DNA from: Candidatus Nanopelagicus abundans | GTDB taxonomy: Bacteria; Actinomycetota; Actinomycetes; Nanopelagicales; Nanopelagicaceae | Assembly (NCBI RefSeq): GCF_002288305.1 | Contig: NZ_CP016779.1 | Location: 744,001-808,000, forward strand | Length of the DNA: 64,000 nucleotides | Reading direction: 5' to 3' | In this document: piece by piece, positions 1 to 34,904 of the stretch | Numbering within the stretch: position 1 is the first letter of the stretch | Layout of the letters: the number at the start of each line of letters is the position of its first letter | Position numbers and translations under genes: made by a program | Notes under the pieces: model-generated | The model's database searches: none | What the model was told of the DNA's origin: nothing | The model's input: only the letters and a program-made list of their open reading frames with translations

Positions 1-70
1 GGGGTACCAGGACTCGAACCTAGACAAGCTGAACCAGAATCAGCTGGGCTGCCAATTACCCCATACCCCA
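1..70 (-). tRNA. tRNA-Gln (anticodon CTG), cut by window edge
   Basis: Read on the minus strand this folds as a cloverleaf. The acceptor arm begins TGGGGTA and pairs with TACCCC at the window edge. The anticodon stem GCTGA/TCAGC encloses the loop TTCTGGT, giving anticodon CTG, and the T arm contains GGTTCGAGTCC. The U1-A72 type acceptor end is characteristic of tRNA-Gln. The last acceptor base and the 3' end lie just outside the window. It sits directly downstream of gltX, a common arrangement in Actinobacteria. Confidence 0.92.
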
Positions 71-17861: not shown

Positions 17862-18956
17862 TTAAAACTCAACATCAGCGGTTGCTTCATCTACTGCTGC
17901 TACTAAGGCAGGATCTACCTCAGATGGCACATATGAAGTGCGGATCTTAGTTTCAATATCATTAGCAAGATCTGGATTATCAATTAAGAAGGCACGGGCA
18001 TTTTCTTTACCCTGACCTAGTTGATCACCCTCATAGGTGAACCAGGCGCCAGATTTCTTAACAATTCCGATCTCAACACCCATATCAATTAATGATCCCT
18101 CACGGCTAATTCCGACACCGTAAATGATGTCAAACTCTGCTTGCTTAAATGGTGGAGCAACCTTGTTCTTAACGATCTTAACGCGGGTTCTATTACCAAC
18201 CGCATCTTGACCATCTTTTAAGGTTTCAATTCTGCGTACATCTAAGCGAATTGAAGCGTAGAACTTAAGTGCTTTACCACCAGTTGTTGTCTCAGGAGAT
18301 CCAAAGAAAACACCGATCTTATCTCTTAACTGATTGATAAATATTGCAGTGGTATTTGATTGGTGCAGTGCACCAGTCATTTTACGAAGTGCTTGTGACA
18401 TCAGGCGAGCTTGTAGACCCATATGTGAGTCACCCATTTCACCTTCAATTTCAGCTCTTGGTACTAATGCTGCAACTGAGTCAACTACGACAATATCAAT
18501 CGCACCTGATCTAACTAACATATCCATAATTTCAAGTGCCTGTTCACCAGTATCTGGTTGTGAAACTAATAGCGCATCAATATCAACGCCAAGTTTCTTT
18601 GCATACTCAGGATCTAATGCATGTTCAGCATCAATAAATGCTGCAATGCCACCAGCTTTTTGGGCATTTGCAATTGCATGTAATGCAACTGTGGTTTTAC
18701 CTGATGATTCTGGGCCATAGATTTCAACTACTCGACCACGTGGCAGGCCGCCAACGCCGAGTGCGATATCTAATGCAACTGAGCCAGTTGGAATGACCTG
18801 CATAGCAACAGCTTTGCGGTCTCCCATTTTCATTACCGATCCTTTACCGAACTGACGCTCGATTTGGGCAAGGGCGGTATCTAGGGATTTAGCACGATCA
18901 CTAGATCGTTTATCTTCTTTTTTCTCATCTTGTGGTTCTCTATTTGTAGAGGCCAT
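17862..18956 (-). CDS. recA: recombinase RecA
   Basis: DNA strand exchange protein and SOS coprotease. Walker [10 protein letters not shown] at 81-89, the [21 protein letters not shown] block, loop L2 with [17 protein letters not shown], and the C-terminal domain. 364 aa including an N-terminal tail of about 25 charged residues. No intein interrupts it. A Shine-Dalgarno AAAGGA lies about 10 nt before the ATG. Upstream are an unusually structured 150-nt leader and a perfect LexA box, both annotated separately. Confidence 0.98.
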
Positions 18957-19106
18957 AGTGATTTTTTCCTTTCATCTCCTTGACCAGCTCTAGGGCTTTC
19001 ATCCCCTAATGCGAGGTCATATGTTCAGTCCAGAAGGTACGGAACATCACTGACGGCTGGCTGAGAGGCCAGCGGAACTGTGGAACCGCTCTGGTTGGGC
19101 AAGATA
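18957..19106 (-). ncRNA. structured recA mRNA leader (candidate cis-regulatory RNA)
   Basis: Almost the whole 150-nt leader can pair. In mRNA order: hairpin A (GCGG/CCGC with CCA/TGG, 19069-19094); hairpin B (6 bp, 19056-19061 with 19068-19073), which overlaps A at 19069-19073 and so excludes it; hairpin D (ATGTTC/GAACAT, 19021-19026 with 19042-19047); and hairpin C, an inner TAGGG/CCCTA (18991-18995 with 19004-19008) closed by TGACC/GGTCA (18981-18985 with 19015-19019). The AGGAG at 18976-18980 abuts hairpin C. No known riboswitch class is recognised; function is inference. Confidence 0.5.
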
Positions 19107-19112
19107 ATTGTA
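19107..19112 (-). promoter_or_regulatory. recA promoter -10 box
   Basis: TACAAT on the minus strand, immediately next to the LexA box. A weak -35 (TTACCC, 18-bp spacing) can be proposed. The LexA box fills the spacer, so bound LexA would block RNA polymerase. Confidence 0.5.
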
Positions 19113-19128
19113 TCGAACAACTGTTCGA
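19113..19128. promoter_or_regulatory. LexA (SOS) box of recA
   Basis: TCGAAC-AACT-GTTCGA is a perfect palindrome matching the Gram-positive/actinobacterial LexA consensus CGAAC-N4-GTTCG. It is the only such site seen in the window and lies about 157 bases upstream of recA, so recA and recX should be SOS-inducible. lexA itself is not in the window. Confidence 0.92.
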
Positions 19129-19156
19129 AAGGGTAAAACAGGGCTAGGACACGCCG

Positions 19157-19348
19157 TTATCTGTATTTTTCAGCCATCGAAGGGTTATGCCGAACTACTG
19201 CTTTCCATATCTCATCCGGCTCCATCCCCAATTCAATTGCCGCGTTCACACTTATCCCACCTAATTCGCTATGGATGATATCTCTGGCATAGGTGTCAGC
19301 ATCTGGAAAGTAATCACTTAATTTACCTCGAAGTTGAGAAATCCTCAT
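19157..19348 (-). CDS. DUF3046 domain protein
   Basis: 63-aa protein of the actinobacterial DUF3046 family, regularly found beside recA. Visible pattern: a Met-Arg start, then FPDADTYARDIIHSELGG, ELGMEPDEIWKAV and a C-terminal hydrophilic helix. No catalytic motif; the function is unknown. The ATG is preceded at 6 nt by TAAATT. Its stop lies just upstream of the recA promoter, so it is probably not in the recA transcript from the LexA-controlled promoter. Confidence 0.88.
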   Translation of the reverse strand: MRISQLRGKLSDYFPDADTYARDIIHSELGGISVNAAIELGMEPDEIWKAVVRHNPSMAEKYR

Positions 19349-34774: not shown

Positions 34775-34817
34775 GGGTCATCTCCATTTCTCAACACTTT
34801 AAATAAGGAGAATGGAT

Positions 34818-34853
34818 CTTCGATCGAAGTTCACGGGAAACGTTTTCCGGAAA
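34818..34853 (-). other. palindromes in the rpsO-pnp gap (pnp leader)
   Basis: The 130-base gap holds the perfect 12-bp palindrome CTTCGATCGAAG (34818-34829). It also holds TTTCC at 34844-34848, which can pair with GGAAA on either side (34836-34840 as a hairpin; 34849-34853 as a perfect 10-bp palindrome). A weak AT-rich hairpin follows the rpsO stop (about 34870-34895). PNPase commonly controls its own leader in bacteria; whether that happens here is inference. Confidence 0.45.
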
Positions 34854-34904
34854 CCACTACCGAGGACCAAAACTCTTTTAAATAAAGTTTTTGCTGATTT
34901 TTTC

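Follow-up and report, generated by a model that had tools for sequence, protein, structure and literature searches.

The recA gene of Candidatus Nanopelagicus abundans lies on the reverse strand of the window analysed here (64,000 nt of contig NZ_CP016779.1, positions 744,001 to 808,000; coordinates below count from its first letter), behind a long leader that is rich in possible pairings. What does this leader do, and which of its parts serve as DNA and which as RNA? We approach the question through the promoters in front of recA, the RNA structure between them, its occurrence among relatives and the roles that it may have.

Promoters in front of recA

The original prediction placed a perfect LexA box and a weak -35 at the recA promoter and about 150 nt of pairable leader behind it, and these points are borne out. 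The palindromic box TCGAACAGTTGTTCGA stands directly beside TACAAT, overlapping the promoter (Table 1), and is the sole exact match to TCGAACNNNNGTTCGA in a scan of the 1.16-Mb one-contig genome. A consensus scan of 18900-19250 gave no standard sigma-70 promoter, in agreement with a weak -35. Compared with its shuffles, the 154-nt leader has the better fold (z -2.26); 4 of 200 shuffles were as good. Across the Nanopelagicales family, LexA-like boxes precede the conserved block of the leader, hereafter the core. SOS control of recA by LexA from this distal promoter, P2, fits the sequence. Elsewhere in the genome, two LexA-like boxes with 1 and 2 mismatches stand 58 nt apart (G000:C1:404247-404320; L002, L007), perhaps at another SOS gene.

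Table 1. Features of the recA locus in the window
Feature	Position	Strand	Remark
recA coding sequence	17862..18956	-	ORF of 364 aa, ATG at 18956
AAAGGA, probable Shine-Dalgarno sequence of recA	18967..18972	-	10 nt before ATG; from sequence
Hairpin C (GACC...GGUC)	18982..19018	-	four outer pairs in MFE of 20/20 distinct sequences of the genus; loop varies
H1 3' strand UCUGG (core 72-76)	19030..19034	-	pair counts, covariation
-10 TACCTT (TANNNT) of P1	19034..19039	-	8 nt after -26; start predicted near 19027
ACCU bulge between H1 and H2	19035..19038	-	in DNA, the four middle bases of -10 TACCTT
H2 3' strand CCGU (core 64-67)	19039..19042	-	pair counts
H3 3' strand (core 56-59)	19047..19050	-	GUGA here, GUGG in most
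-26 element CCGTCAGTG of P1	19048..19056	-	consensus tTGTCRgtg; 7/9 letters match
H4 3' strand GCCAGC	19056..19061	-	hairpin of variable sequence in relatives
H4 5' strand GCTGGC	19068..19073	-	part of hairpin B of the original prediction; sequence variable in relatives
H3 5' strand CCAC (core 23-26)	19080..19083	-	pair counts
H2 5' strand GCGG (core 17-20)	19086..19089	-	nearly invariant; alternatively 5' strand of hairpin A
H1 5' strand CCAGA (core 12-16)	19090..19094	-	pair counts, covariation
-10 TACAAT of P2	19107..19112	-	from sequence; start predicted near 19100
LexA box TCGAACAGTTGTTCGA of distal SOS promoter P2	19113..19128	-	perfect, palindromic

A PafBC-type promoter, missed by the original prediction, appears to lie inside this leader. 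The stretch CCGTCAGTG-ATGTTCCG-TACCTT (19056-19034) resembles the mycobacterial RecA-NDp motif tTGTCRgtg-8 nt-TannnT, which marks P1 of mycobacterial recA as quoted in the available text of PMC5656591; the spacing is exact and the -10 fits TANNNT. In M. smegmatis, recA is transcribed from a PafBC-dependent P1 and a LexA-dependent P2, according to the available parts of PMC5656591 and PMC11804915. Because the motif falls within the P2 leader, part of this "leader" is promoter DNA. The 3' part of the conserved block aligns with TGTCRG(T/A)G-N8-TANNNT at recA of other actinobacterial families. By script, a LexA box followed by TGTCR..TANNNT was found at 20 of 23 recA loci of those families, and a LexA box followed by the motif at 9 of the 11 hairpin-free loci of the family itself; the remaining two, L239 and L240, show the motif by eye, directly behind the LexA box. 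Against the P1 reading stand the 7/9 match of the -26 element and the disappearance of the -26 core in some Planktophila species. The predicted P1 transcript would begin about 71 nt before the recA ATG. A start close to the ATG, which the original prediction took as an argument against a long leader, is therefore predicted for this shorter transcript, and P2 still predicts the long one.

The genome also encodes PafB and PafC. Two adjacent genes of 307 and 310 aa with WYL matches, pafB and pafC, are followed by tatA- and tatC-like genes, and a PafC match was obtained in 29 of 30 relatives searched. The pair (L284 2681-5922) neighbours tRNA-methyltransferase-like and FKBP-like genes. By eye, no pafA or proteasome gene was recognised in the 11 kb around pafB-pafC, and PafBC may have outlived the Pup system in this genome. 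The strict motif GTCRGTG-N8-TANNNT has five matches in the genome, against three for the reversed pattern; they stand before the start codons of recA, radA and two other genes, and once within a reading frame. At radA the -10 lies 6 nt before the ATG, and the motif is retained in relatives. The sites at radA and the two others (L414-L416; G000:C1:52489, 378440, 444509) all have their -10 6-7 nt before the ATG. This suggests that radA and the two other motif-bearing genes may be leaderless damage-response genes, recA being exceptional in having a leader.

Taken from sequence, recA very probably has tandem DNA-damage promoters, a distal one under LexA and a proximal one of the PafBC type; both transcription starts and the PafBC dependence of P1 are predictions of the same kind. 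In other actinobacterial families, 15 of 20 scored recA loci carry TCCACA behind the LexA box and ahead of the PafBC-type promoter (L250, L260-L263, L265, L267, L268, L270-L274, L276, L280). TCCACA resembles a DnaA box and may be an additional control element.

The hairpin between the promoters

The leaders of relatives share a bulged hairpin with helices H1 to H4, whose 3' strand is the PafBC-type promoter P1. Conserved rows read CCCAACCAGAGCGGTTCCAC, then the hairpin, then CCGTCAGTGG and CCGTACCTTCTGGACC, with small changes. All four helices were recovered by RNAalifold on 45 leaders with no structure supplied. In one divergent genus the 5' strand of H2 reads ACGA, and three of the four pairs are retained. 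In the ACCU bulge, A, C and C are invariant and T is found in 133 of 134 distinct cores. The length of H4 differs by more than 20 nt among relatives, and in the window sequence the outer H3 pair (C23-A59) is mismatched. In several genera, an extra hairpin separates the core from the P2 start (L046, L047, L058, L068, L096, L099, L103 and others); by eye, these inserted 5' hairpins differ in sequence and retain their pairing.

Pair counts were based on 238 recA loci, 7 of which failed owing to contig ends or absence of the pattern. The 231 leaders obtained comprise 172 distinct ones; 161 carry the core, in 134 distinct blocks, and 11 (from g5, g6 and g14) are without core and stand outside the pair counts. 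To bring the columns into register, cores reading GCGGTTTCCAC were shortened by one U, and some Planktophila rows by one loop base. Over the 134 distinct cores, 98.1% of H1-H3 cells are paired, against at most 75% in the null; the cores are mutually related, and these pair counts, like the strand counts below, are not independent. The middle pair of H1 (14-74) is A-U in 117 cores, U-A in 14 and C-G in 3. In H3, pair 24-58 is C-G (119) or U-A (15), and pair 25-57 is A-U (117), C-G (13), G-C (2), G-U (1) or U-A (1).

Compensatory changes in relatives, on which the original prediction had staked a conserved leader structure, are present. On a sequence tree, nine branches carry a double change in an H1-H3 pair that leaves it paired. 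A tree-aware null, in which the same substitutions were redistributed in 300 runs, gave a mean of 0.13 and a maximum of 3, and none of the 300 runs reached 9. Pairing registers slid by 1-4 positions gave 0-1 compensatory branches. Of the 2346 pairs scored in an all-against-all test, 14-74 came first (E 0.085); taken by themselves, the H3 pairs fell short of significance (E 3-10).

The strand on which pairing is selected was judged by folding. For 128 of the 134 cores folded in isolation, the MFE structure contains H1 and H2 in full, and the antisense MFE contains H1 and H2 (at least 7 of 9 pairs) in 23 of 134. Raw MFE favours the antisense strand in 103 of 134 cores; correction by strand-matched shuffles reverses this to the sense strand (z -2.13 for sense, -1.16 for antisense; sense lower in 103 of 134). 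Wobble counts in H3, 12 G-U and 19 A-C, the latter mostly at the terminal pair, do not settle the strand alone. In four genomes of the Planktophila group (G143, G256, G198, G254), the recA -26 core is broken, with GTAG or GATG for GTCR, and H3 remains largely paired; the radA promoters of the same genomes keep GTCAG, and PafC was matched in all four. From the compensatory changes, the sense-strand bias and the pairing kept where the recA -26 is broken, we conclude that pairing is selected as RNA, beyond the constraint of the promoter. H1-H4 is very likely a real RNA structure.

In the full leader of the window, however, this hairpin is not the preferred fold. The MFE is -54.5 kcal/mol, against -49.9 kcal/mol with H1 and H2 forced, a cost of 4.6, and the hairpin probability is 0.00; the mean over 49 full leaders is 0.48. 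The leader has no gathering-level match among Rfam covariance models, the best sub-threshold matches being unrelated, so that the search in Rfam proposed earlier brought nothing. Elsewhere in the window, the same models report an Actino-pnp RNA (RF01688) at 34812-34871 (-) with 65.3 bits and a tRNA (RF00005) at 1-70 (-), cut by the window edge.

Of the hairpins named in the original prediction, A (AGCGG/CCGCU) and B (GCUGGC/GCCAGC) do share bases, and B is H4. The sequence permits hairpin A in 119 of the 134 cores; the GCGG of A hardly varies, and no covariation supports it. Only 3 of the 134 distinct cores allow hairpin D (AUGUUC/GAACAU), which is nearly strain-specific. As a conserved fold, A, B and D give way to the longer H1-H4, which that prediction did not contain and which covariation supports. 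Hairpin C (GACC/GGUC) ends right before AAGGAG as described, but is confined to the genus Nanopelagicus. It lies behind the P1 start and would be part of both predicted transcripts.

Occurrence among relatives

At the DNA level, the recA leader has matches in 212 of the 296 genomes of the order and in 12 of 17 genera; the hairpin is found in 12 genera, all of a single family (Nanopelagicales, "acI"). RecA homologues were obtained in 240 of the 296 family genomes, and many genomes without a leader match thus lack recA in the assembly. In genera g7 and g9, no recA was found in the single genome of each. A covariance model, R1, made from the RNAalifold-folded leaders, matches only recA in this genome. 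The named genome collection gave at least 120 stretches; together with 8 viral stretches, 99 carry the core among the matches listed, 91 directly before recA, 8 at a locus end and none elsewhere, and 29 stretches show the loose pattern only. Model R1, applied to 80 of the at least 120 stretches and the 8 viral ones, gave 66 strong and 3 weak matches. The viral contigs gave 8 pattern matches, none of which matches R1. Five loci titled as Bifidobacterium breve or Streptomyces griseus MAG (L110, L113, L155, L166, L175) carry the acI recA leader, and these names look wrong.

A wider spread found no support. Searched with stricter filters, by which weak homologues may be lost, R1 matched 44 of 394 genomes of the class, 39 of its own family and 5 weakly (23-31.5 bits). 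None of the five has recA nearby, and those inspected read coding-like; they are treated as chance. The recA leaders of other families gave no match to R1.

The genera that carry the core fall into a single group of a RecA tree (local support 0.93), in which g17 and g16 split off earliest. The genera g6 and g14, which have the promoter without the hairpin, are sister to this group, a join with weak support (0.15), followed by g5. Among the labels of this tree, L244 is marked as core-bearing by the loose pattern although its leader is without core, and L241 and L310 are marked "none", no leader having been found in those loci. The simplest reading of these sequences is a single gain of the hairpin.

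Possible roles and known systems

How might such a hairpin act? According to our model, P2 would be blocked by LexA, and the PafBC-type P1 would lie inside its leader. RNA started at P2 would carry a copy of P1, which would fold on the complementary segment just behind the P2 start to give the bulged hairpin H1-H4. RNA started at P1 would begin just after the hairpin and be without it; hence, the hairpin could act only on the LexA-driven transcript. There it would close the stretch copied from the promoter into a domain of its own near the 5' end, keep this stretch off the rest of the leader and shield the 5' end from decay. Folding gives 10.0 expected pairs between the 5' part and the rest, against 14.5 with the 5' part shuffled, and lower values in 32 of 48 cases; the effect is clear outside Nanopelagicus (8.6 against 16.2) and weak within it (11.5 against 12.8). 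The smaller number of pairs favours a self-contained, insulating 5' domain. Against a mere insulator, the near-invariant unpaired bases, ACCU in the bulge and AACC before and in H1, exceed what insulation needs. We therefore put forward only tentatively, as the likeliest of the roles considered, that the hairpin is a self-folding insulator or stabiliser of the LexA-driven transcript. The explanation as a whole, tandem promoters with an insulating or stabilising RNA hairpin on the P2 transcript, has in our view an even chance of being right.

The original prediction suggested RNA-level control by attenuation, translation or stability. An RNA structure is there, supported by covariation, sense-strand bias and its family-wide occurrence; the first two routes fared less well. 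No terminator-like site was found, and with it no expression platform of a riboswitch or attenuator. Accessibility of the Shine-Dalgarno sequence shows no clear difference between real (0.592) and shuffled (0.566) 5' segments, and translational control by the hairpin is thus unsupported by folding. Sequestration of this sequence in the long transcripts was considered, as its accessibility is 0.59 there and 0.73 in the short ones (in 49 rows, one without a short value, 28 are lower by >0.1 and 1 is higher), but a shuffled 5' part behaves alike. Small upstream ORFs, for example one with its ATG at core 59-61, were set aside, the start codon being missing in most relatives.

The main rival of the insulating domain is a sequence-specific partner, since the unpaired bases are so strictly kept and the hairpin is not the MFE fold in the window leader. 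A protein or small ligand would recognise the bulged helix CCAGA-GCGG / CCGU-ACCU-UCUGG and tune the LexA-driven transcript, for example in shut-off after repair. All but one of the 134 cores retain the ACCU bulge though TANNNT leaves three of its bases free, and other families read, for example, TAGCGT or TACCGT; together with the nearly invariant H2, this is conservation beyond pairing and promoter consensus. However, there is neither a terminator-like site nor a special occlusion of the Shine-Dalgarno sequence nor an Rfam match, the hairpin occurs on one gene in one family, and partner and ligand are purely hypothetical. We consider such recognition unlikely, though it deserves to be kept in mind.

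It is improbable that the block matters as DNA only, as a PafBC promoter with an upstream DNA element whose pairing is a by-product or a cruciform. Its 3' half is indeed the P1 promoter, the inverted repeats could extrude, and PafBC is activated by single-stranded DNA, as stated in the available text of PMC11804915. Yet g5, g6, g14 and other families have the promoter without the 5' half, compensatory changes affect both halves, and folding favours the sense strand over the antisense. Moreover, a DNA dyad would not be expected to change in length as H4 does, by over 20 nt, and pairing stays in species whose recA -26 is lost.

A switch between alternative folds, in which hairpin A (GCGG/CCGC) competes with the rest to control attenuation or translation, is very unlikely. 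Hairpin A excludes H2 and the base of H4 where it is formable, in 119 of 134 cores, and would form first during transcription. But it is impossible in many cores of the genus reading GCGGTTTCCAC, which retain H1-H3, and shows no covariation; terminator-like sites are absent, and when the window leader was folded at growing lengths, A appeared at no tested length from 70 nt up. Also a long shot is the idea that PafBC, RNA polymerase or some other protein recognises the RNA image of P1 in the P2 transcript, with its evolved antisense copy and bulged -10, and that the recA leader thereby links the two damage pathways. The reading of the hairpin as a decoy, a double-stranded RNA image of P1 that binds PafBC or sigma-A polymerase in a 6S-like way and lets the SOS branch restrain the PafBC branch, draws on the -26, spacer and -10 lying on one strand with their complement on the other, on the unpaired -10 bases -11 to -8, and on the Sm/Hfq-like fold of the PafBC WYL domain, first thought to bind RNA (PMC6789036, in its available part), but is highly improbable, because the bulge is far smaller than a transcription bubble, the likeness to 6S is geometric only, later work names single-stranded DNA as the PafBC ligand (PMC11804915, likewise in part), and some species lose the -26 sequence and keep the pairing.

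In the available parts of accounts of PafBC and recA control (PMC6789036, PMC8223512, PMC11804915, PMC5656591), no such hairpin is mentioned. Likewise, the open-licence literature searched, including the available text of PMC8632094, PMC2864571 and PMC11077062, yielded neither this hairpin nor any other structured recA leader. The promoter pair is of a known kind, and as far as the literature searched goes, the covarying, promoter-based hairpin of the recA SOS transcript appears to be new. By sequence, LexA/PafBC double control of recA extends from mycobacteria to the streamlined freshwater acI actinobacteria, and in one acI clade the stretch between the two promoters has turned into an RNA structure with covariation. 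It is unusual for a sequence to be under constraint in two capacities, as promoter DNA and as one strand of an RNA hairpin, and this double constraint can be tested directly; model R1 offers a ready-made RNA family for annotation.

Several known systems invite comparison. The ompA mRNA of E. coli has a protective 5' stem-loop. Like stem-loops of this type, the recA hairpin stands near the 5' end, and several genera have extra 5' hairpins inserted; unlike them, its sequence is far more conserved than a stabiliser needs. 6S RNA is a helix with a bulge at the place of a promoter -10 and binds sigma-A RNA polymerase as a promoter mimic. The recA hairpin, by contrast, lies within an mRNA leader, has a small bulge and no Rfam match, and the resemblance goes no further. 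Structured cis-regulatory leaders such as Actino-pnp (RF01688) likewise place a covarying structure before one gene in one group; the recA hairpin differs in its lack of an Rfam match and of any sign of an expression platform, and in that one strand doubles as promoter. The closest relative in kind is recA of M. smegmatis and M. tuberculosis, which also has a distal LexA promoter and a proximal tTGTCRgtg-8 nt-TannnT, in genomes that encode PafB and PafC. Unlike in mycobacteria, a segment complementary to P1 here joins the two promoters, so that the predicted P2 transcript can fold into a conserved hairpin.
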